From the NCBI GenBank assembly GCA_950295325.1, contig OX485805.1, positions 55,204,758 through 55,268,757 of the forward strand: a stretch of DNA of 64,000 nt, read 5' to 3'. The notes under the pieces are model-generated. The model searched no databases. It was given only the letters and a program-made list of their open reading frames with translations, and was not told the origin of the DNA. Each line of letters opens with the position of its first letter. Within the stretch, counting starts at the first letter, position 1. Below are positions 1 through 40,772 of the stretch, piece after piece. The DNA is from Polytrichum commune (lineage: Eukaryota; Streptophyta; Polytrichopsida; Polytrichales; Polytrichaceae). The translations under genes were made by a program, and so were the position numbers.

Positions 1-3000
1 TCGTCTTCTATGCCCTGTAAGTCAATCATCTCAACACCAGATTCTCCAACTGCCTCCCTTGACTTCCTAAGTTCAGTTTCAAAGGAAGGAGTGAAACTAG
101 GAGCACAGTCAAGGTACCAACCACCTCCAGTGAGATGTGAGGTTGACCATGTACGTTGTTGATTTGCTGAGAACATGCACGTGGAGTTAGACCTGTCAAG
201 CCATGCTGAGAGGAATATAGGGAGATCTTCTTTTGTTATTGTTCCTTTTGCAAGGAGCTCGTACTTGAAATACCTGCGGGAAAGACACAACTCATCATTA
301 AATACCTTGCAATTGACATAGCTGCCATATTAAAAACCAAAACACTAGGTAGATATCAATAGCAACCATGTTTGTAGGTAGTAGAGTTTGAATACCATAA
401 AATGTGTCTCGGGACCGAGACACTCAAACTAGGCCCTGGAATTTCAGAGATTTCTAGGCTTATATGAAACTAGGCCCTAACTAAGCTTATATCAGGTTAC
501 CCTAACTAAGGTTATATCAGACTCCCCTAACTAAGATTGTATCAGATTTCATTACCTAAGCTAATCTCAGATTGCACTAACCAAGCTTAAACCAGACTAC
601 CCTAACTAAGCTTATATCAGATGTCACTAACTAAGCTTATATCAGATATCACTAACTAAGCTTATATCAGATTACCCTCACATCATATTACACTTATAAC
701 ACACAAATCTAACCTCATATCGGATTGACCTTAATACAAGCATATCTAGAAATCACATCAGAATGCACTTATAACACACATATCTAGCCTCATATCAGAG
801 TACACTTATACCAAGTATAGGTAGATATCAATAGCAACCATGTTTGTAGGTAGTAGAGTTTGAATACCATAAAATGTGTCTCGGGACCGAGACACTCAAA
901 CTAGGCCCTGGAATTTCAGAGATTTCTAGGCTTATATGAAACTAGGCCCTAACTAAGCTTATATCAGGTTACCCTAACTAAGGTTATATCAGACTCCCCT
1001 AACTAAGATTGTATCAGATTTCATTACCTAAGCTAATCTCAGATTGCACTAACCAAGCTTAAACCAGACTACCCTAACTAAGCTTATATCAGATGTCACT
1101 AACTAAGCTTATATCAGATATCACTAACTAAGCTTATATCAGATTACCCTCACATCATATTACACTTATAACACACAAATCTAACCTCATATCGGATTGA
1201 CCTTAATACAAACATATCTAGAAATCACATCAGAATGCACTTATAACACACATATCTACTATGATTATAGGTAGTAGAGTTTGAATACCAGAAAATGTGT
1301 CTCGGGACCGAGAGACTCAAACTCGGCCCTGGAAAATCAGAAATGTCTAAGCTTAAATCAGATTACCCTTATACCCACAATTGCAAACTAACCTCATATC
1401 AGATTGCATTTGTAACCCACATATCTAACCTCACATCAGTTTGACCTTACTACTTGAATATCTAGACATCACATCATATTTCACTGCAAACACACATCTC
1501 TACCCTCATATCAGAGTACCCTTATACCAAGTAAATCTAGATTTCAATATCAAATATCATTGTAGGGTTTAGAGTTTGAAGACCAGAAAATGTGTCTCGG
1601 GACCGAGACACTCAAACCAGGCCCTGGAATTTCAGAGATTTCTAGGCTTATATGAAACTAGGCCCTAACTAATGTCACTAACTAAGCTTATATCAGATAT
1701 CACTAACTAAGCTTATATCAGATTACCCTCACATCATATTAAACTTATAACACACAAATCTAACCTCATATCGGATTGACCTTAATACAAGCATATCTAG
1801 AAATCACATCAGAATGCACTTATAACACACATATCTAGCCTCATATCAGAGTACACTTATAAGGAGTACCTGTAGATATCAAACATTGCTAACTAACCTT
1901 ATATGAGATTAAACTTATATCAACCATATATAACCTCATATCAGATTTCACATATAACCCTTAATACAACCAAATGTAGAGCACACACCAGATTTCACAT
2001 ATAACACAAATTTCTAACCTCATATCAGATTACCCTAATACCTCAAAGTGCATACTAACATCATATGAGAGTACATTTATAACACACATATAGAACTGTA
2101 GTATGAAAGGAGAGAACTCACCGAAAGATAACTCTTCGGACAATCAAGTCTGTCCTGTTAAATCCCTCAAATTCGTGAGTTTTGTTAAAGGCCTCCTGCC
2201 CTCGGAAGAATGTGGGAAACGCGTTGTCCCATAATTTCATTCTACAGTCCTCGATGTATGCAACCAAGGTCAAGGGCTCGCTGGGTAGTGCAAAGTTGAT
2301 AGGAAGTCTGTCTTGGCGCAAAGTGTCTTCAAATATAATGGAAGCCTGATCGGATATCTGTATATACAGAGAGTGAATATGAACAAGAATTTGAGCAACA
2401 TCGATTCATATATTGAAATAACCGTGAAACCAAGAGAAAGACCAATTAATGTAAGGGATCAAATCAAGTAACACCGAACTAAAGGGTACATAGGGGATTA
2501 TGTACTCACTCCTTCCCAAAAACATGCCTTGGCTAGGAATGCCTGCAATTTGTCCTCATTGGTGGGCTTGGTTGGCAGTTTGCGAGCCTCACGTGTTGAT
2601 GAAGAGGAATTGAAATATTCCAACCATTTGATTTTACAAGCGGGTGATGCTTTTGTAGTAGCGATCAACTGCAATTTCTCTAAGTTGAGCTCGGGTGCAA
2701 TTGAGTTAAGAGTATAGTGACGCGCAATCTGTGACCCATAGAGCAATATATTAAGATCATGGAGATTAATGAATTACTTGAAAAATGTAGAATGGGTTTT
2801 AAAGTAGTGGACATACCTCCCGAAGCCATCCATCTGTTAAGTCTGGGTTTGCCACACAAACTAGTTTTGACATTTTCTTATGAAGTGCCTCGGCTCTCTT
2901 TGAAGCAGCGACCTTCATGGCGGCTGTTTTTTCAGCAGTAGACACCTCTCCATCCGTTTGCTCAAGAAGTTGACGAACGCCCTCATCTGCAGCAAGTACC

Positions 3001-6000
3001 AGTTTGTGCTGGAAAGGGATTACCATAGTTAGTTTGTAATCAAACAACTGCGACAAAAAAGAATTATGAAAGCACATAAAGAAACAAAAACATTCAAACA
3101 TCAATTATAAGTACCAAATGTTGAAAGGAATTAGATATAAGAGTAATCACATCATCAAGCATCAACATCACATCATACCTGGAAGATGAAGCTCGTGAAT
3201 ACATGTAGATTTAATGAATACCATGTCTTCTTTGAAGTTTGAGATTTCTTGCACCTTTTAATGTCAGAGGGAGTCAAAATGTCTTGGTACTGTTCGAGCG
3301 GCATAAGTCCATACTTCTGCACCCTAAATAGAGTGTGAACTGTGTTTGTCTTCACGTGAGAGTCTTCCGTATGTCTACAAGTAACAATCATATATTAAAG
3401 ACAAAAACAAAATAATATATTTACATAGATGAAAACCTCAAAAAGTGGACTTAGAAAACTTACTTGTTGATATTATGCATAACTTACATAACAATACCAA
3501 TTTTTCCCTTGGTGTCAAGGAGGATGCTATCCACCAAAAAATGCCAGGACTCTTCTGTTTTGTGAAGTCGTTCAATATGGTTCAACCAAGCCTGCCGCCT
3601 ATGGTTCCCGTCACAAACAAAGAACATCAAATTCGTAAAATTGGCTAACTCTGGAACGGACAGAAGAAAAGAGTTGAATTGTTCATTTTTGGCACTCCAA
3701 ATAGGACCCCACGATGCCTTATCAGCCTCATTAACCTCATGTGTTTGTCCTTCTTCATTTGTTATTGTCACATAAAATACCGAGGCACCCTCTCTATACC
3801 CATGCACAAACTCCTGCTCCAATTTAGCAAGATCACTTGGGAGAGTTGGCCTCACCATAGGCATGGCCAACATTCTGCACAAGGGAATAGGGAACCTTGA
3901 GGAACTCAGGGGTTGGACTCTCAGTCGAGAAATCGTGGCAACAGAATTAAGTTTCTGTCGGTTCCTGATATCATCTTCATCCCCTTTATATGGATCTCTA
4001 TCTCCAAGCCCCTCTTCATCCTCATCCTGACCCTCTTCAGAATAGTCTAGAGAAAACAGAGAAAGAGCAGGAACATCCTCCATTGCCTTGTTCTCTACCT
4101 GCAAAATATATGTACTAGTTAATCAAGGAGAGAACATGAGCTCAGCTGCCATCAGTTATAAGTGTATGTGGTATTGTTTGACCATCAAAAGACATGTCTC
4201 GGGACCGAGACACTAGTACTAGGCACAAATATTCAACTCATGAAATAGTGATCCTTACATCGGATCACCCTCTTAGCTCACATTGCAAATTTACAATATA
4301 TCAAATTACACTTATATCAGGTTACAATTATATAAGATTACACTCATATCAGGTTACACTTATATCAGACTACACTTATAGCCCCTAAAATCATAGTGAG
4401 GTGGAAGAGTTTGATAGTCTCAAATAGTCTCTCGGGACCGAGAAACTAGAAATCAACTCTAAAATTCAATTTCAAACCTACCTATCCTTACAGATATCAA
4501 ACCTTAGATCAGATTACACTTCTAACAAACATTTCTAACATCATATCAGAGTACACTTATAACAAGCATATCTAGATATCAATATCTACTATGATTGTAG
4601 GTAGTAGAGTTTGAAAACCAGAAAATGTGTCTCGGGACCGAGACACTCAAATTCGGCCCTGGAATTTCAGAAATTTCGAAGCTTAAATCAGATTACCCTT
4701 ATACCCACAAGTCCAAACTAACCTCATATCAGATTGCACTTGTAACCCACATATCTAACCTCACATCAGTTTGACCTTAATACTAGCATATCTAGACCTC
4801 ACATCATATTTCACTTCAAACACACATGTTTGGTGTCAAATCAGAGTACCCTTAAACCAAGTAAATCTAGATTTCAATATCAAATATCATTGTAGGGTTT
4901 ACAGTTTGAATACCAGAAAATGTGTCTCGGGACCGAGACACTCAAACTCGGCCCTGGAATTTCAAAAATTTCAAAAATTAAATCACATTACCCGTATACC
5001 CATGAGTCCAAAGTAACCTCATATCAGATTGCACTTGTAACCCACATATCTAACCTCACATCAGTTTGACCTTAATACTAGCATATCTAGACCTCACATT
5101 AGATTGCACTTCAAACACACATGTTTGGTGTCAAATCAGAGTACCCTTATACCAAATAAATCTAGATTTCCATATCAAATATCATTGTAGGGTTTACAGT
5201 TTGAATACCAAAAATTGTGTCTCGGCACCGAGACTTCAAACTCGGTCCTGGAATTTCAAAAATTTCAAAAATTAAATCACATTACTCGTATACCCACAAG
5301 TCCAAACTAACCTCATATCCGATTGCACTTGTAACCCACATATCTAACCTCACATCAGTTTGACCTTAATACTAGCATATCTAGACCTCACATTAGATTG
5401 CACTTCAAACACACATGTTTGGTGTCAAATCAGAGTACCCTTATACCAAATAAATCTAGATTTCCATATCAAATATCATTGTAGGGTTTACAGTTTGAAT
5501 ACCAAAAATTGCGTCTCGGCACCGAGACACTCAAACTCGGCCCTGGAATTTCAGAAATTTCTAAGCTTACATAAGATCACCCTTATACCCACAAGTCCAA
5601 ACTTACCTCATATCAAATTGCACTTGTAACCCACATATCTAACCTCACATCAGTTTGACCTTAATACTAGCATATCTAGACCTCACATCAGATTGCACTT
5701 CAAACACACATATCTAACCTCACATCAGTTTGACCTTAATACTAGCATATCTAGACCTCACATCAGATTTCACTTCAAACACACATGTGTAGTCTCATAT
5801 CAGAGTACCCTTATACAAAGTAAATCTAGATTTCCATATCAAATATCATTGTAGGGTTTATAGTTTGAATACCAGAAAATGTGTCTCGTGACCGAGACAC
5901 TCAAACTCGGCCCTGGAATTTCATAATTTTCTAAGCTAAAATCAGATTAGCCTTGTACCCACAATTGCAAACTAACCTCACATGGGTTTGACCTTAATAC

Positions 6001-7334
6001 TAGCATATCTACACCTCACATCAGATTGCACTTGTAACCCACATATCTAACCTCACATCAGTTTGACCTTAATACTAGCATATCTAGACCTCACATCAAA
6101 TTTCACTTCAAACACACATGTGTAGTCTCATATCAGAGTAGCCTTATACAAAGTAAATCTAGATTTCCATATCAAATATGATTGTAGGGTTTACAGTTTG
6201 AAAACCAAAAATTGTGTCTCGGCACCGAGACACTGAAACTCGGCCCTGGAATTTCAAAATTTCTACGCTTACATCAGATTACCTTAATACCCAACATAGC
6301 TAACTAACCTTAGAAAACCTAACACTTGTAACCCACATATCTAACCTCACATCAGTTTGACCTTAATACGTCCATATCTAGACCTCACATCAGATTTCAA
6401 GAACTCCAAGAACGACACAAAACCCTCACCTTCACCCTCAACCGTCAACCCTCCCCCTCACCAGAAATGTCTCCCTCGGCAGGTATAGGTGTCTACCTTA
6501 TTTCAGTTCACAATCTTGGATCTCCGAACACTATGCAAAAAAATAAAATTCAGGGTGTTTTTGTGTGGGACAACGTACCTCTTCCCCGAATTGCTGTTCT
6601 TCATTGTCCATTTTTGCTTCGCGAAGATCACCTTTATCAGCGCCTTGATCGAATTCGCCAAGGATTTGTTAAGTGTATATGTCCGGTGCTCATTAGCTAT
6701 GAATTTGGCCTTATACAGTGTTAGCATTTGAAAGACCCCTTACCCTAAACCCAAAACCATTCAAGTCACCAATTGATTACAATCTTTACAAACCTGCTCC
6801 TCACTTTGATCTGATGTTGAGGCACTGGAGGTTGCCTCAGGTTGAACCTGTGTCTGCGTCATTCCCTGTTCCAGATACCCAAACCAAACCCAATTCACAA
6901 TCCCCCACCAAACATAAAACACAACATAAAGGAGCCGATACCATTGCCCACACAACAAGGGAATTTAGAGGGTCTCATCTGTTCCAACTATCCGTGATAG
7001 AACTTAACATTATGATTGCACATATAAAAATTTCATTATGATTGCAGATAAACATCACCTCACTGCCCCCTTTGTCAACTTCGTTGTCTTCCTCCGATAC
7101 ATGAAATAATACTACTGGAGCTACCTCTGGAACATCAAACGTTTTTTCCCCTTTGGAACCTCTACTTGTGCCCCTAGAAGAATTAACCCCTCGTCTACCC
7201 ATTGTTGTCCGCAAGTTGTACGGCGTTCCTAAGCTCCCTCTTGATTCTAACATTTGCCTTCTCTCAATACGCCTCTGTTTTTCAATAGTCCTCCTAATCT
7301 CTCGATCTGCTCTCGCTCTCGACCTAGTGTTCAT
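1..7334 (-). CDS. ParB/sulfiredoxin-like DGNHRR-box protein, multi-exon, 3' end beyond window
   Basis: Eight exons join with correct GT-AG sites and consistent phases: 7334-7059, 6865-6794, 4098-3488, 3374-3179, 3008-2817, 2728-2510, 2345-2122 and 273-1, continuing off the window. No internal stop occurs over about 690 codons. The N terminus (about 65 residues) is very basic and probably nuclear. An acidic stretch in exon 3 is followed by a core with S-R-F-x-I-P-L, P-M-V-R-P, then F-F-V-C-D-G-N-H-R-R-Q-A-W and W-H-F-L-V-D-S-I. The G-N-H-R-R-x-A-W box with a following hydrophobic strand recalls the G-E-R-R-x-R-A box of ParB/Srx-fold proteins; this is a family-level resemblance only. A decayed paralogue lies at 37020-38023, with the phase-2 intron after the core at the same place. 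The first two exons are supported by phase and splice sites only. It diverges from a MULE transposase and may be that transposon's second gene. Biochemical function is unknown. Confidence 0.62.
345..2121. repeat. Satellite array with palindromic core, in an intron of the ParB-like gene
   Basis: Two nearly identical 474-bp units begin near 349 and 822, followed by degenerate units. Each contains short sub-repeats of the type AACTAAGCTTATATCAGATT and one near-palindrome GTGTCTCGGGACCGAGACAC (9-bp arms around GA) at about 404, 876, 1297 (one mismatch) and 1592. The array fills the intron between exons 2345-2122 and 273-1 of the minus-strand gene. No coding signal is seen. Confidence 0.85.
4190..6400. 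repeat. Satellite array, ~295-bp monomers, second intron block
   Basis: This is the same family as the array at 345-2121. The palindromic core recurs near 4195, 4430, 4627, 4922, 5217, 5512, 5881 and 6217. Spacing is 294-295 bp in the middle of the array and 336-369 bp later. Variants change the central dinucleotide (GA to CA) or one arm. Monomers also share the motif TTTGACCTTAATACTAGCAT. Short open frames inside are chance products of the repeat. The array lies in the intron between exons 6865-6794 and 4098-3488 of the ParB-like gene. Confidence 0.85.
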
Positions 7335-7774
7335 CTCTAATAATATTGAAGCAAACAGATCTTATATATCATTGTCAACTCTGTCATAATTAACATCTAT
7401 TCTCCATCATTATGTTCACATTTTGGATAATTGTGTTCACATTGGATTTAGATAATTAATCTGCATTTCCTTGATTTATTCCTCTGTTAATCCACACAGC
7501 ATTAATACACTACAATTGGCGGCACTAAAACCTATTCTACATAATGGAATCCTGCCATGTCACATATTTGGTGGTTGATAAAGTATTGACTATTATTGTA
7601 GTACATTCTTTTCCTACATGAAACAGGGTGTCCAACATTTACATAAATAAACATTGACTATTAATTGATCTAACATGTTATCAAATATTCGCGCATTGGT
7701 GTCTACCCTAGGTGTATATAATACCCGATTGCTTGTACCCATTCCTTCATGTCATCTCATCATATTCTTCTCCA
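7335..7774. promoter_or_regulatory. Divergent promoter region between ParB-like gene and MULE transposase
   Basis: The 440-bp AT-rich spacer has two outward TATA-like boxes. TATATAATA at 7715-7723 on the plus strand is about 52 bp before the transposase ATG at 7775. TATATAAG on the minus strand (7362-7369) is about 28 bp before the first ATG at 7334. The latter leaves almost no 5' UTR, so the true ParB-like start may be a later in-frame ATG. Confidence 0.4.
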
Positions 7775-10700
7775 ATGGGTACTGACTCAAGTCTCCCAAG
7801 CCCTGCTCCTTTAGGTTCTCCTAGTACATCTCAAGTTCACACCACGTTGTCCATCGATGGTTTCGCAGTTGTCAACAACATGAAGATTGACAACCCATCT
7901 GACTCCTCAGTTACTCCGGCGGTCATGGTTCAGAGTCCACATGCACGGACTCCATCCTTGCAAGCGGATGTTGCAACGCTGATAGAGGACTTGTCTACTT
8001 TACAGACTCATGCATATTCTAGAGTAGGGGTTATTAAACCGGGCACGTACTCTAGATCTGTATTAAGGAGTTTCCCACTTCCCAAATGACAGAAACTCGG
8101 TTGCGCAGGATGCACTGCAATTCATAGTTTAGGGATTGACCATTGTCATAAACATGACAGTGACAAAAATGGCAAAGGGCCCCATAAGCGTTTTTGTCGT
8201 TAATCACAATGTAGCATTCTATTGTTTGGGATTTATTATTGCAGAGCTACTATCATGCTCTCCACATTATTCGTGGCGGCCGTCATTCTTATGGCCTTAT
8301 TTGCCAATATATATTATAACCAACAATGTTTAGAATGTATGTCTGTTCTTGGTTTCTACTATTTGAAAACAGGTAAACATAACACCTTGTGAGTGTATAT
8401 GATACGCCCACCTCTTTTGCTCTATTTATATTGGAATATTATGTTTGAAATAGATATCGGTTTCTTACCTATCTGGGACTTGCATCCAAAAATGGTTTTT
8501 CAGCCGTTTTTCAGCTTACTCTCCATGTCTCTCTATTATCTTCTGAAATTCTGCTTGCTGGTACATAAATTACCAGTTTGCACAGTAATTTGTTCCCTCT
8601 TATATATTCATGCCATTTCAATGTTCACAGTACTTGTTTTGTTCAGAGTTATGTGGTATACTATGGCCCTGCTTCGTGCTGAACCTCATTCTGTTCCGGT
8701 CCTCTTTCCATTAGGTGAAGACGGTCATGCTATAGTCACTTGTGCAACATTGAGTTTGAGGTTTCAATATCGTGAGGTCACTATCTTTGTCGAAGAAGAA
8801 GTTTTTGACGATCATACCGGTCTAGTTTCACATGCAGTTCGTCAGACTAGAGTAGATAATGACGTCGGTACGTTCTGGTTGTTGAAGCCTGGAAAATATC
8901 GTGTATATGGAGTCTCTGAGCCTATGTTTGAGTGTTCCACTGAACTTCTAACACCCAAGGAGTCTTCCACTATTAGCATTGAGAGACCGGTGCTGTCTAA
9001 GGTCAAAATTGAGCCCGGTCTAAATACAATTTATGAGTTGAGTGATGATTCCGACGGCAATGTTGAATTCTTAAAATCAACGAGCAGAGTCCAAGCTTCG
9101 TTGTCTCCACAAGTAGTTCGCAAGGAAACAACTCCTCCTGTTAGTCCGTCTCCTAATCCTGGTCAGGCCAAGGTTGTGGCAAGTCCTCTTGTCAGTATCA
9201 TTCATTCATTGATGCGCCTTGGAGCTCGTAAGCGGTCCAAAAGTGTGTTATCTCGAATTAACTTTGATGCGATCAGACTCCAGCAGGTTGATTACCTTCC
9301 TCCTCGTTACGATGGGGACGTTATCTTCGAGTTTCCACCTTTAGGTGACCATGGCCATAATACAAAGGCCAAGCTGCTTCGTGGAATGGATAGAAGGTAC
9401 GATGGCCATGCTTGGACTCGCACAATTACATTCAATATTCAAAATGATCTGAAGCTTTTGTTTCGTGCATCTTCTTGTTTGGGCCACCTCCGTTGCGACA
9501 ATCCTGCCTATGAGTATCTTCAGCGAGACCATAGGATTTCCAAAGTGAATGAAACAGAGTGGGAAGGATTATCTGAGAAATTGTTTGAAGTGGGTTCCAA
9601 GCCTCCAACTGGTTCGACCGTTGTTTGCAAATCATGTAACGTCCCTCCCACCTGTGTTGTTGTCTGCACTGCCAAGATCTACTATGTTACCGCGACACCT
9701 CACATGACGAGGGCTTGTGTGCACTTGGGATCTCACGACCATCCCGTCAAGTCAGGTGATCATCGGGACTTCATCGATTTGACAAACACCTTGATTGGGG
9801 ATCAAGTCGAACGCACCCCATCAGCCACTCGCTCCGCTATTGTGCTTGAAACTGCAAAGGAAGTATTGGGCCCACTCCTCCTTGCTAAAGAAGGTGACCC
9901 ACAAAAGATCTTGGAGCTGGACGAGCTGCAAGTTATTTTCGATCGGTGTAAGCACCTCACCTCGCCCAACATTCGTAACGCAGTCACCACGTTCAGGACT
10001 ATGCGTCGCTTTGGAGTCATGGACAGTATTACCAAGTTACGCGGTGCTAGCAATTGGAGGTTTGTGCAACAGAATAGGTTTCCAGGGCAAGGAGCGGACA
10101 TGGACAAGGTCTTTGTCTTCAAGATGTCTGAAGTTGGACCGGGCAGCGGAGTCGACCTTGTCAAACGAATGCAACCCGGTGGTGACTTGGAGAACTCCTG
10201 GATAATGTTTGACCATGTCAAACGTGTCAGGTCGTGGACGACAATGGCTTGCCATGTGTACGATTCCACATATTGCCGTGTCATGACCATCGCAGTATGC
10301 GACATGCAGTCTGAAGATGTTGCAGCCCAGTCAGTGGTATGAAAGAACCTGAACGCTCTCATGGCTCAACATGGAGTGGACAAAGTCAATTTTAAAGGTT
10401 TCATGGCCGACAATGCCCAAACCAACTGGAATGCTGTTCGAATCATTTACGAAAGTGGAGATGTGTCTAAGAAGATGGTGGATAGAGAGAGGACTTGTCT
10501 TTTCCATTGGACGCAGTCCTTGGAGAAACATACCAAGGCCGATATCCGTCAAGACCTGCAACATCAGCATCGAATACTATGCCAGCAATACAAGAATGCA
10601 AAATCGATGGCGGAGGCCGAGACAAAGTATTTGGCAATTCGGGCATGGTGGATGTCATCCGGGGCAGCAACTGAACAAGGTCTACCTCGACTGGAGCTCT

Positions 10701-11506
10701 GGCTGGCCTTCTGGCATTTCCGTTACCGCCAATGGGGTGGATTTATGGAGTTGGTAAGTCTATGTTTCCCTCTATATTTCCTGTATAGTTCCCACTTTAT
10801 GCTTCAACTACATTGATTCCGCCATTATTCTAATTCGGACTGTATGGGCATTGCAGGATCTAAATGAAGCTGAACTAGCGGAAATGCCATCCTGTAACCT
10901 TGCTGAATCTATCCACAACAAGTGGAAGCAACAATCTGGCGATCGGGGCAGCGACCTTTATGTGGCAACAATCGATGACTTCGTGCGTGCTTTCATGCAG
11001 TGCTCAGCATATTCCCAATTCCTAAAGGGAGAGAACCCTGGAACTGGACCGTCGAAGGAGGAATTGAAGTTGAGGCGTGCTCAGAGGTCTACCGTAAAAA
11101 CAGAAATCTCGAAACCGCTGCATAAGGCCATCTTGAAGATGCCTAGCGGTGACGAGTGGTGCACCAGGACTCCCCACCTCGAAGGGGAAGAGGTATTTGT
11201 TTCTCTGAAGCGTAAACCGGATACTGCTTTCGGTGACAAACGTGAATCTCACAGGCCAGACAAGATCAGTATATCCCGACCACGCGTCCAAACCAGATCT
11301 GCCCGACTGAACGATTCTCCATCTCCTGTGACAACTCCAGATTCTCCCACAACTCCATATTCTCCCACAACTGCAGATGAAAACCAACCGCAATTTCCAA
11401 CACACAACGCTCCGCAGCGGGTGGATCGGCACCACGTCACCGCGATTGAGGAGACATTATGCAACCCTGCCTAGTGGCACATCGCACAGCTGCCTAAGAC
11501 ATCTGC

Positions 11507-14345
11507 TGTGAACCCTTTGAGTGGTCCACCACTCTGCGGGATCACTTTTAGTTAGAATGTTAGCATTAAAAGTTAGAATTGATAGGGAATTTAGGAAAAA
11601 TTAGTTCATTTAGCATTTAGCCTAGAAGAAGGAAGGTCAAAATGAAACTAAGTAGTGCTAGAAGATAGCAAAGTAGAAAAAATGTGCTAGCTAGTAAAAA
11701 CAACTAGCTAAGCAAATATTAGTAGATGCTAGTTATTAAGCAAATGTTAGTAGATGCTAGCTAAGCAAGTGTTAGTTTATTAGTTAGTGTGAGGCACACA
11801 AGACTATTGGAGGTGTTTTACGTAAGAAGATAAAATCGGCGTGAAGAATTTTGAAGACAAAAAAGAAAGAGAGCAAGGGGGATACTTGCCCACTTGCCCC
11901 CTTGCCAACTCGATGGCGGAAAAATTAGAAAGATTTCTAAAGGTTTTTTGTCGGAGCCACCTCGGCGAGAGGGTGGCAACCTCAACCGGGAAAACCCCCG
12001 AGCCAAAATTTCGGGAAAGGGTTTGAAAAATGGATCCGGTGGAGGAGGGGTCCAACCCTTTTGTGAGAGGGTTTAAAAACCCCTCCTTCCACCTTGTAGC
12101 TCTCTCTCTTTCTCTAGTTTTTGGGCGAAGCCCTGCTTCAATGTAGTTAGGAAAAAATCCTTTAGCATGTATTCTCAATGGTCTAGAAGAAAGGCTTGAG
12201 AACCTCCTCTACTCTCTCTCTCCTAGTTAGGTTGTGTGTTTATTAACACACCAACAAAATTATTCCTTCTTTTGTAGAGGTAGGTTGGATGGTAGAGTTT
12301 TGAGTAGAGGCATTATAGACCTCATCTGCCAATGCCCTGAAGGCTTAGTTCAAAAGCTAGAACAAGATACTTATCATTTTTCTCTTAGAGAGATTTCATA
12401 TAGCTATCCATAGCCGTTTCCCATTTGTGATTTGGTTGAGATGACAATTAGTTATGGATTTTCAAAGATGGAGTAGAAAAACTGGGTGGTCTTGTGGGTA
12501 GCGGCTGCTGGATCAGACCTGCGAGCCCAATAGGAATTTTAATTCCAAGAAATTATATTTTTCCCAAGTAGAACTTTTGTGTAGCTTTCCAAAATGGCTT
12601 AGAACATTTGATTTGAGCATGATTTGAATTAGATATGAATTGTGCAAGATGGGACACATAGTTTGAGAACTTTTGGTTGACTGCTGCATTACAGAGGACC
12701 TGCTGGGTTCACTTCGGCTTACCTTTCTAATCACATATTTTTATCAAATACATCTTTTTAATATCTCTCCAGGGTCATATAGAACGTTTGATTTGACTAA
12801 GATTTGAATTAGATATGAATTGTTGAAGGCGAGATACATAGTTTAAGCCTTCTTGATTGACTGCTGTGTTACAAGGAGTCCGCTGAATTTCTATTAGCTT
12901 AACCTGCTGATGTCATAATTTTTCTAGTTAGAGCTTGTTCATAGCTTTCCAATGGTATAAGGAAAGCCTAGATTCAAGTAGTAAGGAATGTGCTATGAAT
13001 TTTTGAAGTTAGAAGATAGATAGGTGGGTTGGAAGGGTCGGTTGAATCGACCTCACACTTCCAACCCTCATAACTTTTGCATTTCTTATCCGATTAGAGT
13101 GATTTTTAGATCATTGGAAAGATAATTTGGTGCACTAAGTATAAATATTATGCTTAGGATTAAATTACAGGGCAGAATAACACTTTATATTTTAATTGTT
13201 AACTAAGGTACGCTTACTACCAAACTAGTTACAAAGAAGGAGGCAAGGTCGACGCTCGGAAAGTGGAACAAGGAAGGAGGTAGCGGCTCGGCCTACATCA
13301 AGCCCAAATCAACCGAGGAAAATTGAGGTAAATTAACTAACCTTAAGCCTTCCATTTAGGATTGGAGGGAGCACGGCTAAGGTACGCATCTCTAAACCCA
13401 CTCACCTATCTCGTAAGGTCAAGTGGCTTGACCACTTGACCGCCAAGGGAGTACCCAATTCCATTGTTTTCGGGGCCCTTGGTATGTTTTGTGGTAGTAG
13501 CTTCATTTATTAGCAAGTTTCGTGTGTGGTAAGTCGGATTAATCACCGATACGACCACTCTGAATGTTGTTGGTGGAAAGGTGGGGTTAATGACCCACGA
13601 ATCCACTATTATGTTGTTGGCCCCATAGATTGGGAGTAATGGCCCCAATTTATGAAGATTGCGCAACAGGTTGAACCTACAGGTCGCCCGTCACCCTGGT
13701 CCCATTGAGTTGCATTTCGTGGTCTATCCAGTGTAAACACATTTAACAATCAAAACATACCAAATAAATCGTAAACCCTTGTTGGCAAGAGACCCGAGGT
13801 AAGGGGTGATGCCTAATATGTTAATGTAGTAAGTTAGGACGTGCAAACAAAAGTAAGTAATTAAGAAGGAATTTGTGTGAAGGGTGGGACTTAGGCCAAG
13901 TTCCCCCGCTTAGAAAACTAAATAGAACTAAATAAAGAAATAGGAAGAATTGAATGGTCCATCAAATTGTCGTTATTCCGTTCGTTGAGTTAGGATGGTA
14001 TGAGTCACACCCGGTTGGGTGTATCAGAACCATCCCAATTCACAAATTAGGATTGCCTTGGTTTCAAGGCTGGTGCGTCTGCGCGTAGAATAGGTTGTAG
14101 GTTAAGGTTAGAACTAGATATGAAATTGGTTAGTGGAGTTTAAAGCCACACTAGTAAAAAACTAAGGCCTAACCTCCGGAGGTACTACGACGCATATTTA
14201 ATCTCCCTTAAAAATCTAACTACTCACGTTATACACCTATCATCCGGGTTCGGTTTGGGCGCCTGCAAATGCAGGCCACCTTCACCGAAGGGCTTGTGTG
14301 ATACTTTTAGGCTCCCTCGAAAGGGGGTGGCCCAAAAGTACCACA
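11507..14345. mobile_element. Solo-LTR-like insertion in MULE copy A
   Basis: The 2,839-bp element begins TGTGAACCC and ends AGTACCACA. It is flanked by the 5-bp direct repeat TCTGC (11502-11506 and 14346-14350). TG...CA ends with a 5-bp duplication are typical of LTR retrotransposons. Removing the element and one TCTGC restores the transposase reading frame exactly, which independently confirms the borders. No second internal copy of its ends and no gag or pol is seen, so it is a solo LTR or an LTR-like non-autonomous element. A TTTAAAAAC box near 12070 followed by CT-rich sequence could be its promoter. Confidence 0.8.
12421..13060. repeat. Diverged tandem repeat inside the solo LTR
   Basis: About three imperfect units of 180-230 bp share the phrases GATTTGAATTAGATATGAATTG, ACACATAGTTT or ATACATAGTTT, TTGACTGCTG, and CTGCTG or CCGCTG. 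Nothing coding is seen in them. Confidence 0.5.
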
Positions 14346-15167
14346 TCTGCGAAGGCTTGCTTTGCTCTACAAGCAATCACCAAGAAGAAGTGCGTCGCTC
14401 GGATTGTACAAGACAGGAAGAGCACTGCTGCACCTACCTACTCAGGCCTCATGGATAACTATCGGAAGAAGAGATTGGACCCTCAAGACTTCTTTTTCTG
14501 CAATGACGACATTGAGAGATGCGTTAAGGGTACAAAAAGGAGGAGGGTGGTCTCAGTCCCGAACGTTCCGGAGGTATGGCCGGTTAAGTTGGGAACCAAC
14601 TTAACCTGCAAAGAGATCCTCTCTTTAGAAAACGCAGGATTTAGACTGCCCCAGCGGAAGAAGATGATACCTTCCAGAATTTTTCAGGACCACCCGTTAC
14701 CTTTGGACTTAGCAAGCTACACGACTCCTGCATATCCGGATGAGTTTCCCACCCGGCGTTCAGGGAAGTTGATTAAGCGCAACAAGAAGGCCCCGTCAAC
14801 AAAACACGCCAATAATTGTGCCTCAGCCCTATCACTGAAAGCCAAAATGCACAAATTGTGCATGCTTCCAGCCCCTGCCTTAGGATGCATCGTCTCGTTG
14901 GATTCCGGCACGCCCCCAAAGGTTCAGCAATACTACTTGACGATTTCGCAGCTGTCAGCATGCACTTGTCCTAACTTCAAGGACATGGCGACTAAAGCAA
15001 TTGGAAAAAGGGGTCATTGGGCCAACTGTAAGCATTTGTACTATTTGTTTACTGTAGTCTGTGGTTTGGACTCAGAATCAGACACGTTCATTCATGCAGC
15101 TAGTTTTAGCTTCAACGAAGTGAAGCGAGTTTTGGAAGGTGGTTTGCTGAAGTACCTTGACTCTTAG

Positions 15168-15610
15168 AGTTTTCTGTTTCTTTAAAGTAACATATGTATG
15201 TAAGATTTGTTATAATCATGATGTAATGAGACTAAATGGGCCACTACAAGACATTTGACGCACCACATGTATTTCGTTGTTCCAAAGTTGCGTGACCTTT
15301 TTAGAGTACCACTAATTCTCATTATACTGAAACAATACGTGTTTGACTTGAGACAAACCCATATTTATTACTGATATTAGTTCCAAATGTTCAATTTAAC
15401 ACCCTAAACCATATTTTTCACTGATACAATAACAATTTTTCCTGTATCAGAGCCCTTAATTGTCCACGGTCATAGGTCACACTGTTCACTAAGTTTAGAA
15501 AAATTAATTACTAAAAATAAATTTAGTCCAAAAATACCATAAATTTACTACTTAAAATAACATTTTAATCAAAATATCTCGGAAGTTACCGCTCACCGCT
15601 CACCGCTCGC
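15168..15610. other. 3' flank and probable terminal region of MULE copy A
   Basis: AT-rich sequence without a gene. It ends in GCTCACCGCTCACCGCTC at about 15592-15609, immediately before the LINE fragment begins. A similar triple repeat in the same orientation relative to the transposase lies downstream of copy B (minus strand, about 38450-38470). This suggests it marks the transposon's 3' terminal region. Confidence 0.4.
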
Positions 15611-16125
15611 AAAATAGCTTCGTCCCCCGGTAATATAGTGGTTGATTGAGAGTAAATATTTCCGACTAGGGCTACGGCGTCCTGCGGATATCCGAGGTCT
15701 TTCATAATGGCGAGGAGTCTGGCATGATCGATAGAGCCAAAAGTGTTCTTGAAATCTATGTAGAGGATGTAAATGTCTTGATTGGTGAGGCGTGCATCTT
15801 CTAACGCGGCGATGAGGATTTGAAGCTGGCGAGCCGTACATCTTTCGGCTCTAAAGCCTTCTTGGCTATCATGTAAAATTTGGTGTTTTTCCCCATAGGA
15901 GGAGAGTATACTAGTAAGCGTACTAGTAAAGAGTTTGTAAATAGTGTTGGCAAGTGCAATAGGACGATGGTTGGTGAGGTGGTGGGGGTTGCTTTTTTTG
16001 TAAAGGAGTATCGTAAGGCTTGTTTTCCAAGCTTCAGGTATTTGTCGTTGTTTATAACAGTGGATGAAAAACAGTAAAAGGAGTTTGTGGAATCGTGGCG
16101 GCATGTTTTTGAGTATGGTGTTGGG

Positions 16126-36990: not shown

Positions 36991-37019
36991 CTTGTAAGTC
37001 CATTATCGGACTCGCACAC

Positions 37020-38023
37020 CTTGTAGTCGGCGACGGGAATAAGGTCCTTGAACTCCTCAAGCTTCATTTTCCCAAATGTTCAAATGCGGAGCAATTTGGC
37101 AAGGAGGTTGTCTTTAACATGGTCGTGCTCCGTGGACCTACAAAAAAAGAAGTTAGAGAGAAACAAAAGAAGAATAACATAGCAAACAAAAAACAAACAA
37201 GCAAACCAACAAAACAAAACTCACCAGTTGATGTCATTCATGGCATTAAGGAAGACGGCAGTGCAATTTCTTGGGTCCACGACAATACAATCAACGAAGA
37301 TATGCCAATCTTTGTCGAAGGAGTGATGCTTGGTAATGTGCCTCCACCAAGCTGTCAACCGATGGTTTCCCTCTCATACGAAAAACATCTTGCCGACAAG
37401 GTGAGCAAGGTCGGAATCATTTTGGAGCATGAAATCGAACTCCTCATTGGCCTCCTGCCAAAATGAACTCCAGGAGGCCCGAATGTCGTCGCAGACATGC
37501 AACACCTCATCAAGGTTGTTATACGGAGAGACGTACATGGCTCGGTCACCGTCACGGTAATCCATAACGAACTCATTTTGCAACTGAGCGACATCAACCT
37601 CGTTGATGGGCCGAACAAGAGGAAGACATCTCAAGCGACGCAATGGAATGGAGAAACGTGACTTAACAAGAGGTTTGAGTCGAACCCGTTGAATCACAGC
37701 ATTAGAGTCTTCTTTTTGCGATCTTCGAATCAAGAGCTCAGTCTCCTCTGGGTTGGACTCATCAAGAGGACGCAGCAAGTCTGGTGCAACAAGTGCATCA
37801 TTCTACAAGGTTAAACAAAAAATGATCAGGTAGACACCAAAAGAACAAATAACATAAAAGAAGTGGAGGCGATGTTTGAAAACCAAAATAAAAAAGGCAA
37901 GTCCTATGCATGAAATATTTCTTCACATAAAACATCAACTAATGTCCCAACTCCTACCACGGGAAGCTCCAATTGAACATTACGGTCCTCAGTCGAGGGC
38001 TCTTCTAATAGAATGAGATCCAT
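37020..38023 (-). pseudogene. Decayed ParB/Srx-like gene (copy B), cut by the LINE
   Basis: Exons 38023-37958 (ATG, 22 codons), 37802-37225 and 37137 to about 37020 join in phase. The core matches copy A: S-R-F-S-I-P-L, P-L-V-R-P, E-G-N-H-R-L-T-A-W, W-H-I-F-V-D-C-I. The next exon matches too (T-E-x-x-H-V-K, then K-D-L-I-P). Stops are TGA at 37374-37376, where copy A has Cys, and TGA at 37080-37082. The downstream exons are replaced by the LINE. It lies on the same strand as, and downstream of, the MULE copy B remnant, a different layout from locus A. Confidence 0.65.
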
Positions 38024-38661: not shown

Positions 38662-40772
38662 CTATGTAGTTGGATCTACAGTTTGCACTACGTACATTTC
38701 ATATGGATATACACATATATTTCTATATATACAAAAATGACGAATAATTGCCTCATACAAACATGACATTTTGTTCCCAGATTGTTGCAGCCACTTGTTA
38801 TGTATTGTTTCTGCTAGGTTGCAAGTTGGCATCTCAGCTCGTTGATCCAAAGTCAGATCCTGTAATACATATTGAAAATATTTTTAGTTAAAAAAATGAA
38901 ATGACACAACAATTTCATCAACAGTAGAGGAGGGACATTTGTGTATTGGAAGAAACTTACAATGAGCATGTGACCTTCCCATTGTCTATATCGATAATGC
39001 CAAAACCCCAACCATTCCGACAAGTTGTACATGCCCTCCTCGGTGGTTGCCCCTGATGACAACCACTAGGCCCGTATCACATGGTATTTGATGTCGGCGT
39101 CCGCCAAACTCTTGGCGTTCTTGTAGTCTTTACAAAGTTGTTTGTGTTCATGCTGCAATGAAGGGCGGATGTGTTTTTGTGTTATTTTATCCAAATTGGC
39201 AGACCAATGGAAAAAACATGTACGCTCGCGACCCTCGAGAGGAACGGATGTGTCACCATCACCGTAAATCTTCCACATAACAATTCAATTTGCTTGGGCA
39301 CTATCCGCTATGAACCTTTTGAAATTGACATTGGGGACACCATTCTCCAGCATGACAACATTTAGATTTTTCCAAAAAATGGTCTGGGCCCGAGCATCCT
39401 CGGATTGCATATCACAACATGCTATTGTGAAAACCTTGCAATGTTTGTTGTCATACACGTGACACGCCATTGTAGTCCAGTCATGTAAATGCTTCACATA
39501 GTCAAACATGATCCACGAATTTTCCATGTCTCCTCCACATTGCATGCACTTCACCAAATCGACTCTGCTTCCAACAAGATCCACTGACATCTTGAACACA
39601 AAGACCTTATCTTTGGACTGCCCTAGAAACCGACTATCATGCACATATTTGAACCCAAAGTGATTTTTCAACGCCATGATGCTATCCAAGGACCCCATTC
39701 CACTACAAATAAAATGTTTCGAGCCCGCCACAAAGTTCCTACAGTTAGGGGAAGCCAAAGTGAAAAACGTATCCATTACCACCTCCAAGGATGCTCCATG
39801 AAGATGGTTTTTTTCTCCTGGGAAAGGACATTTGAGGATGTAATATGCCAAAAATTGTTTATTGGCAGCCATAACAATAGCTGAGTTTTTTGCAGTTGGA
39901 GTTTTAGCCACCTCATTTGCCACACACTGGTAAGCCATGTCTAATGATTCACGACACACTCCAATAGACACAGGGTGGTTGTGAACACCCAAGTGAATAC
40001 AAACACGGGACATGTTTGACGATTGTGAATAGACGTATATAATTTTTGCATAGCAAACATCAAGACATATGGGAGCGGCATGACAAACCTTGCATTGAAC
40101 GTTAGATTTCTCTGGTGGAATTGTACCGACCATGAAAGGAGTGGGTGTAATACCGATCAATTCGGTAGAGTTGCGAACTCCTCCATTTCGTGAAGGATAC
40201 TCACACGAGTCGTTAGGGCATTGGAGATGACCAACGCATGAAGACCTCCGGAAAGTCAAACCAAATTCATTTTGAATGTTTGTTATTTTGGTTCTACACC
40301 AAGCATGTCCATCATAAATCTTGTCCATGCCATCCATTGCCTTGTCGTAAGCATATGGATTTCCAGTCTTGATCGGTGACAAAATGAAAAGGACATCCCC
40401 ATTGAAAGAAGACGGCAAATACTTCACATCCTCTATAACAATGTTATCGAAGTCAATATTTGTGAGATCAGATTTGGATCTTCTACGATACTTGGTGATT
40501 TTGAGGGCTTCCAATATATGAACATTAGATATGGATGACGTAGGATGAATATGAGGTTTTCGAGAGTGTATATGTTGTTCAAGAATATTAAAGTTCAGTG
40601 GCTTGTGAGGAGAGGAGTCATTGCCATGCAGAGATTGTACAGAAGATGTAGAAGTAAAAAAACATGGAGATTGAAATGGATAAGAAGAAGTCCCTGCAAT
40701 GTCCAACACTTGGATGCTATCTTCATCTGAATCACTAAGGACCACTGTGAGCCTGAAGTTGTGTGCCCACAT
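38662..40772 (-). pseudogene. MULE-type transposase remnant (copy B)
   Basis: A paralogue of the transposase at 7775-15167, starting near 40772. It keeps Y-D-G-H-A-W, the Cys/His cluster, C-D-M-Q-S-E-D, A-D-S-A-Q, C-F-F-H-W and, after an intron (donor GTAAGT near 38957, acceptor TTACAG near 38863), N-L-A-E-T-I-H-N-K-W. Stops are TGA at 39285-39287 and TAG at 39066-39068, both where copy A has Trp. The coding part ends soon after the E-T-I-H block; the SWIM finger is missing. An S-D-S-D-E-D acidic motif after V-V-L near the N terminus is shared in kind with copy A. Confidence 0.72.

Follow-up and report, generated by a model that had tools for sequence, protein, structure and literature searches.

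The first 15,625 bases of the window, by which we mean the whole analysed DNA stretch of 64,000 nucleotides (C3:55204758-55268757 in a 408-Mb genome), belong to a 20.6-kb transposon with a MULE-like transposase gene on one strand and, divergent from it, an accessory gene that is predicted to encode a ParB-like part together with a beta-class DNA-methyltransferase-like domain. Arrays of palindromic iterons lie inside this unit, and the core of the palindrome is conserved between two subfamilies. We assume, with about even confidence, that this is a giant MULE-like transposon of a land plant, whose accessory protein may bind the palindromes of its own element and in this way mark, shield or organise its own copies.

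Extent and ends of the element

The termini were derived from a comparison of element copies. Copy alignment, terminal inverted repeats (TIRs) and the target site duplication (TSD) place the left end of the window copy at C3:55199781, 4,977 bases outside the window, and the right end at window position 15625. An initial annotation of the window had given the span as 1-15610; the element is indeed located there, but this span is clipped at the window edge. The features of the element in the window are:

1-15625, no strand assigned: window share of the MULE-like element, defined by copy alignment, TIRs and the TSD CCCGGTAATA on both sides
15596-15625, minus strand: transposase-side TIR, reading inward GGACGAAGCTATTTTGCGAGCGGTGAGCGG; the partner TIR begins at L007:5024, outside the window
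15626-15635, plus strand: 10-bp TSD CCCGGTAATA; the second copy is at L007:5014-5023
11504-14345, no strand assigned: 2.84-kb insert of another repeat, with a 99.2% identical copy at a different site of an element on C5

The terminus on the methyltransferase side is GGGAAAAGCTATTTTGCGAGCGG and the one on the transposase side is GGACGAAGCTATTTTGCGAGCGG. A genome search with the TIR pattern AGCTATTTTGCGAGCGG (at most one mismatch) returned 186 sites and none for the reversed control. For the 100 listed sites of these 186, a gene probe (ParB-like, transposase or methyltransferase) was found within 30 kb on the inner side in 90 cases and on the outer side in 9. The same 100 sites form 20 pairs less than 60 kb apart, of which 13 enclose all three gene probes and 16 at least two. 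The ends of 10 of the 20 pairs were fetched, and all 10 pairs are flanked by a 10-bp TSD (nine perfect, one with one mismatch), compared with 0 of 90 swapped controls. This is a positive answer to the question raised with the initial annotation, namely whether both genes lie inside common TIRs flanked by duplications of 8-11 bp. TSDs were recognised by eye for a copy on C4 (ATTCATCGAA) and for the family-2 copy at L017/L018 (ATCTCCAATG), the termini of which are related. Also by eye, the window copy is inserted within a reverse-transcriptase-like reading frame. The size of the elements ranges from about 16 to 20 kb.

Pairing of the two genes across the genome

At the first locus of the window (locus A), the ParB-like exons (4122-3463 and further down to 2121, minus strand) are divergent from the transposase (about 8.7-15.17 kb, plus strand), which agrees with the side-by-side arrangement described before. 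Copy counts in the genome are lower bounds, as scoring covered part of the candidates: at least 107 matches from 1,794 candidates were scored for the transposase query, at least 150 from 1,210 for the ParB-like exon query and at least 150 from 1,144 for the methyltransferase-exon query. Among the 80 transposase matches with at least 79% identity (family 1), 56 have a divergent upstream ParB-like match within 50 kb (35 of the 80 within 8 kb), seven have one in another arrangement and for 17 none was scored within 50 kb. By chance, about 1.4 of 107 transposase matches are expected to have any ParB match within 15 kb, as calculated with approximate chromosome lengths. When the methyltransferase exon probe is added, at least one partner within 30 kb is found for 70 of the 80 transposase matches. 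Conversely, 97 of the 150 scored methyltransferase-exon matches are preceded within 30 kb by a ParB-like match on their own strand; for three it is on the other strand and for 50 there is none. All three probes occur in the expected order in 45 elements. In family 2, a divergent ParB-like exon and a transposase exon lie at opposite ends in all six further loci, which had been preselected for a transposase match plus ParB-like or methyltransferase matches already listed there.

The earlier proposal of a two-gene transposon is thus retained as regards the common TIRs, the 10-bp TSDs and the partners of most family-1 transposases, but the partner has to be redefined as ParB-like plus methyltransferase-like. 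It had also been noted that the orientation of the genes varies and that at least one locus must be rearranged, and this holds: divergent orientation prevails in families 1 and 2, and a second locus of the window (locus B) and a minority of copies differ.

The accessory gene and its ParB-like part

The following exons were assigned to the accessory gene:

3463-4122, minus strand: first exon of the ParB-like/methyltransferase gene, containing DGNHRRQAW; an in-frame stop lies near the exon end in the window copy
3376-3179, 3014-2814, 2731-2504 and 2372-2121, minus strand: exons 2-5 (linker), located by tblastn of the L019 gene model
3-275, minus strand: start of exon 6, which continues left of the window
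L007, about 8157-7774 and about 7624-7348, then an exon with GSSIHACR, minus strand: methyltransferase exons, outside the window

Below the ParB-like exon, the minus strand contains the linker exons and then, in L007, exons with LILADIPEG and DCTAATG. Reading these downstream exons ruled out a separate ParB-like gene. The model of the gene at locus L019, a related copy, is one open frame of 1,082 amino acids (aa) in ten exons; its splice sites were selected for GT-AG score, for reading frame and for agreement with the layout of the C4 copy, with a weak first donor, and it is to be read as a gene model only. We infer that all exons yield one accessory protein of about 1,080 aa.

Of 16 aligned ParB-like copies, which are 36-74% identical to the window copy, 15 have the motif [DE]GNHR, and in 14 it is followed by xxAW; the sixteenth copy, at locus B, stops short of the motif position. 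We use the label 'ParB-like' because of this motif and the published algal architecture, and the ParB fold as such is not confirmed. Searches for relatives of the ParB-like exon gave none in viral contigs and phages and none in plasmids, where a single chance match at an expectation value (E) of 10 was obtained.

The methyltransferase-like domain

The 3′ part of the accessory gene is predicted to encode a beta-class DNA-methyltransferase-like domain, and profile and sequence searches demonstrate its homology. With the L019 gene model, PHROG 3008 (DNA methyltransferase) was matched with E 3.5e-6 and PF01555 with E 1.3e-4, the latter at 22.4 bits and below the curated cut-off of 26.7; the match to CcrM in NCBIfam is weak (E 0.017). 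Matches of the domain to phage records number 437, and in 43 of these at least 80% of its length is covered; the DNA methylase of Enterococcus phage 9184 is matched with E 1e-6 over 81% of the domain. A four-sequence profile compared with the PDB matched DpnA (E 2.6e-7, positions 165-221) and CcrM (E 2.5e-4, positions 14-221). As in the beta class, motif IV precedes motifs X and I.

Searching the genome with PHROG 3008 led to 38 matches, 35 on chromosomes and three on contigs C10 and C12. Within 20 kb of a listed transposase match are 16 of the 35 chromosomal ones, and 15 of these 16 are divergent. The matches on C10 and C12 are strong, with E down to 4e-18, and both contigs are probably bacterial sequence in the assembly.

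Five forms of motif IV were read: DIPEG in families 1 and 1b, QFPDG and DLPEG at L017, DVPDN at L055 and DIPEN at L056, with the methyltransferase exons of L055 and L056 joined by eye. All of them have E or D in place of the aromatic residue, and the canonical catalytic [DNS]PP[YFW] is absent in all five. Motif I is variable and keeps a G and an acidic residue after the next strand. Because the catalytic motif is altered, these sequences suggest either a divergent enzyme or a module that binds S-adenosylmethionine (AdoMet) or DNA without catalysis. A second methyltransferase-like fragment, with DLPEG, lies at L017:3781-4020 (plus strand), next to a family-2 element and on the opposite strand.

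Palindromic iteron arrays

The iterons of the window are given in one row:

405-6232, plus strand: 12 palindromic iterons TGTCTCGG-GA-CCGAGACA (at most three mismatches), starting at 405, 877, 1298, 1593, 4195, 4428, 4628, 4923, 5218, 5512, 5882 and 6215

Some lie within an intron of the accessory gene and the others upstream of it, with none elsewhere in the window and two further ones in L007. Exact copies of the iteron number 583 in the genome and 0 for the reversed control. The iterons listed are 100, all of them on C1. A match to the ParB, transposase or methyltransferase probe is found no more than 10 kb away for 94 of these, compared with 1.3% of random places on C1, and for 80 a ParB match is that close. 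Their positions are introns of the accessory gene and the region upstream of its first exon. In family 1b, a variant of the iteron recurs 20 times and is part of a 234-bp tandem unit. When families 1 and 1b are aligned on the palindrome, identity is 0.84 in the core, a figure biased upward because the 1b iterons were found by similarity, and 0.31 in the flanks; the best BLAST alignments extend over about 30 bp. In families 1 and 1b alike, the ParB-like exons are flanked by the arrays, and, as for parS, palindromic sites are clustered at the ParB-like gene.

Family 2 contains palindromes in seven of seven loci (L017/L018 and L070-L075), with 2-9 copies of TTTGGGTCG-NN-CGACCCAAA and 4-7 copies of TGTGCGTT..AACGCACA, nearly all of them between the ParB-like gene and the transposase. 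Perfect 8-bp inverted repeats amount to 23-39 in each of L070-L075 compared with 0.1-1.1 in shuffles. The AG-centred form of TTTGGGTCG-NN-CGACCCAAA has 2,562 exact copies in the genome.

Arrays of TTTGGGTCG-NN-CGACCCAAA are also present in an unrelated family of large repeats, L065-L069 (C1:613500, C1:3962000, C1:7848500, C1:14117000 and C1:21314000). These repeats harbour a gene with a WLIDGQHS motif in all five loci, which is also found at L056 (L056:4855-7366), and in four of the five a second gene that may be their transposase. Three frames of this DGQH repeat family gave no Pfam match above the cut-off.

The transposase

Three parts of the transposase gene were assigned in the window:

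8717-10758, plus strand: first large exon, in which a zinc-finger-like region, a CxxH and two acidic residues were recognised by eye; the window copy has an in-frame stop at 10340-10342; 5′ limit approximate
10857-11503, plus strand: second exon with CNLAESIHNKW, split by the insert
14346-15167, plus strand: C-terminal part, in which a SWIM-like CxC...CxH was seen by eye

The combination of TIRs with a TSD of 8-11 bp that is expected of the MULE superfamily was found in 10 of 10 pairs, in the window copy and, by eye, in the C4 copy and one family-2 copy. What speaks against membership is that PF10551 gave no match up to E 1 for the transposases of family 1 (scanned in pieces), locus B and family 2; the profile does find other MULEs in the same genome. 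A profile comparison with six of these other MULEs, based on thin alignments, was not significant. Because PF10551 and the profile comparison fail to match, we use the name 'MULE-like'. The motifs D, D, CLFHW and CNLAE were seen by eye, and the SWIM profile matched with E 0.076, below the cut-off. Comparison of a transposase profile with the PDB gave no match, the model from the window-only alignment A5 has a predicted local distance difference test (pLDDT) score of 40, and the ratio of nonsynonymous to synonymous substitution rates (dN/dS) of the transposase is saturated and uninformative. Some transposase matches of 66% identity are surrounded by giant open frames (2,390-2,527 aa); of two such loci fetched, the frames were listed for L015, where the frame runs through N and is an artefact.

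Locus B, selection and possible module exchange

Locus B carries a decayed pair on one strand, as had been annotated:

36993-37739, minus strand: decayed ParB-like exons of another subfamily
38743-40742, minus strand: decayed transposase of another subfamily

A methyltransferase stretch was not found at locus B. The locus-B transposase query gave 99 matches, and eight of them have a ParB-like match within 20 kb among the matches listed, five divergent and three on the same strand including locus B itself. Locus B is the remnant of an element of another subfamily, either rearranged or nested.

Within two subfamilies, dN/dS of the ParB-like exon is well below 1 (0.21 for L019/L030 and 0.145 for L017/L023). 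Between family 1 and L019, dS is above 2 in the ParB exon, compared with 0.015-0.027 in the methyltransferase exons of this pair. The identities of transposase, ParB-like part and methyltransferase to the window copy do not covary among the 45 ordered elements, with percentages such as 98/96/97, 96/96/75, 96/75/76, 93/65/75, 92/65/94 and 82/74/97. Among element pairs with clear differences in the identity of both transposase and methyltransferase (257 in all), 156 are concordant and 101 discordant. Four mixed elements (96/75/76, 93/76/74, 94/63/74 and 92/68/74) have clean TSDs, at C1:15215679, C4:41551070, C4:45360178 and C5:26807669, and have therefore moved as units; the fetched ends do not include the most telling combination, 82/74/97. 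We infer from these identities an exchange of modules between subfamilies, part of which could also be explained by unequal rates.

Possible role of the accessory protein

In the mechanism that we propose, the transposase would act on the shared TIRs and make the 10-bp target duplications, and the divergent second gene would provide an accessory protein (about 1,080 aa) composed of a ParB-like domain, a linker and a beta-class DNA-methyltransferase-like domain. By analogy to ParB on parS clusters, the ParB-like part may bind the palindromes of its own element, for which TGTCTCGGGACCGAGACA, its 1b variant and the family-2 palindromes are candidate sites. The protein might then gather on the element and there mark it, shield it from silencing or serve synapsis.

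Several results weigh against this reading. As to the profile and structure comparison of the core with ParBc and Srx suggested with the initial annotation, neither Pfam nor the PDB gave a match for the ParB-like part, a profile comparison with SopB was not significant, and the model from two window sequences (alignment A2) has a pLDDT of 37, so that the strand-helix order, which fits that of ParB, carries little weight. Motif IV reads D-h-P-[ED] (QFPD in one copy) compared with DPPY/DLPY in two aligned phage relatives. As for the pairing, 26 of 27 transposase matches at 62-66% identity have no scored ParB-like match within 50 kb, the remaining one having it at 36 kb, and 78 of 83 locus-B-type ParB-like matches (the best 83 of 150 rows, two omitted) have no transposase within 20 kb among the matches listed. 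In the analysis of selection, dN/dS against family 1 suffers from saturated dS, and the ratios of 0.65-0.83 for the methyltransferase exons between families 1 and 1b depend on few changes, too few to show selection. The inflated core identity of the 1b iterons has to be added here. Finally, the family-2 palindrome also fills the arrays of the unrelated repeat family in five of five clusters opened away from probe matches, and one of 16 clusters on C1 (built from 84 of 100 listed family-2 sites, with repeats inside two clusters omitted) lies within 15 kb of a listed probe match. Therefore, TTTGGGTCG-NN-CGACCCAAA is not specific to these elements and was ruled out as a marker for them.

It might be argued that the palindromes are unconnected with the ParB-like protein and are amplified tandem repeats or promoter elements read by a host factor. 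The location of the 1b copies in a 234-bp tandem unit and the occurrence of the family-2 palindrome in unrelated repeats would fit this, but what still aligns between families 1 and 1b is limited to about 30 bp surrounding the palindrome, the ParB-like exons of both families are flanked by the arrays, and the unrelated family also has a DGQH-motif gene that is, by eye, reminiscent of ParB-like domains; we regard this explanation as rather doubtful. We are similarly hesitant about a nuclear ParB/parS-like self-recognition, in which each family would have its own iterons and a matching protein, both coevolving and marking or shielding the copies, with a methyltransferase that has a new active-site motif or senses its cofactor. 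If this were true, the unrelated giant repeat family with the DGQH motif would have the same kind of system.

Two further roles for the protein have to be considered. It could serve transposition, with iteron binding joining the far ends of a 16-20 kb element and the methyltransferase domain being a structural remnant. This would be in line with the conservation of the accessory gene in units with intact TSDs and with the non-canonical catalytic motif in all five forms read. However, the iterons of families 1 and 1b occupy central parts of the element and introns instead of its ends, and motif I retains D, G and S as well as the acidic residue that follows the next strand, which is more than a remnant would need; such a role seems unlikely to us. 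The VANC proteins of Arabidopsis VANDAL elements displace host silencing, and by analogy the accessory protein could be an anti-silencing factor that binds the iterons and displaces host silencing without methylating. The plant host, the position of the iterons in non-coding parts of the element and the altered catalytic motif would all agree with this, which we nevertheless consider improbable.

Relation to known systems

Partner genes are common in plant MULEs, as in MuDR with mudrB, VANDAL with VANC and the ULP1-bearing MULEs. The element described here resembles these in its TIRs, its TSD within 8-11 bp and the presence of a partner gene; unlike them it has a partner gene of another kind and a transposase to which PF10551 gives no match. 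The predicted methyltransferase domain resembles the methylases of Enterococcus phage 9184 and Brochothrix phage BtpYZU01 as well as DpnA/CcrM in the motif order IV, then X and I, and most of the domain can be aligned. In contrast, the two phage methylases have DPPY/DLPY and are single genes of about 740 bp, whereas D-h-P-[ED] and a multi-exon gene with a ParB-like N-terminal part are found here.

ParB-methyltransferase proteins have reportedly been described in green and red algal transposons by Iyer et al. in 2011 and by Petroll et al. in 2025, as a citing passage has it, and the accessory protein predicted here would be of the same type. This citing passage, on ParB-methyltransferase proteins in green and red algal transposons, is part of a paper on the brown alga Ectocarpus (PMC12477816), in which Sola1-1_Ec32 is described as a 21.5-kb DNA transposon with a 1,104-aa protein that is ParB-like and an N4C/N6A DNA methyltransferase. 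In both systems, a single protein of about 1,100 aa, encoded on the strand opposite to the transposase and inside a transposon, appears to unite the two domains; in our case this is predicted from the L019 model, with the ParB half assigned by motif. The differences, as far as the accessible part of that paper goes, are a Sola1 transposase in a brown alga versus a MULE-like transposase with 10-bp TSDs in a land plant. Compared by description, iteron arrays are present here and are not mentioned for Sola1-1_Ec32 in that part of the text (PMC12477816).

Our literature search, which left preprints and most subscription papers aside, found no paper on a ParB-methyltransferase protein in a MULE or a land plant. 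As far as our searches show, the type of accessory protein has already been published, and the MULE-like transposase, the land plant, the module exchange, the non-canonical catalytic motif and the palindrome arrays are new. The accessory class is thereby extended to a MULE-like transposase and to a land plant. It has been proposed that ParB-methyltransferase proteins bind and modify their own transposon, and the available text names no site for this (PMC12477816); here, two families offer concrete candidate sites, which in one case are conserved where their surroundings are not. The many copies and the unequal combinations of parts make the proposal directly testable, and the advance for the field would come from the palindromic arrays.

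Host genome and minor observations

CCCTAAA repeats are present at two of three chromosome ends read, the starts of C1 and C2, and not at the end of C3. The host genome has 43 matches to chlorophyll-binding proteins and 28 exon matches to the NAM/NAC profile, which had none in 14 control genomes. This profile is generally regarded as plant-specific, and judging from its genes we take the host to be a land plant. Within C5:1751760-1846160, 14 genes of chlorophyll-binding proteins with identical profile scores are clustered. The 2.84-kb repeat that splits the transposase gene of the window copy (11504-14345) and its 99.2% identical counterpart in the C5 copy (L009:6606-9448) are inserted at different sites, and this repeat has probably been active recently.

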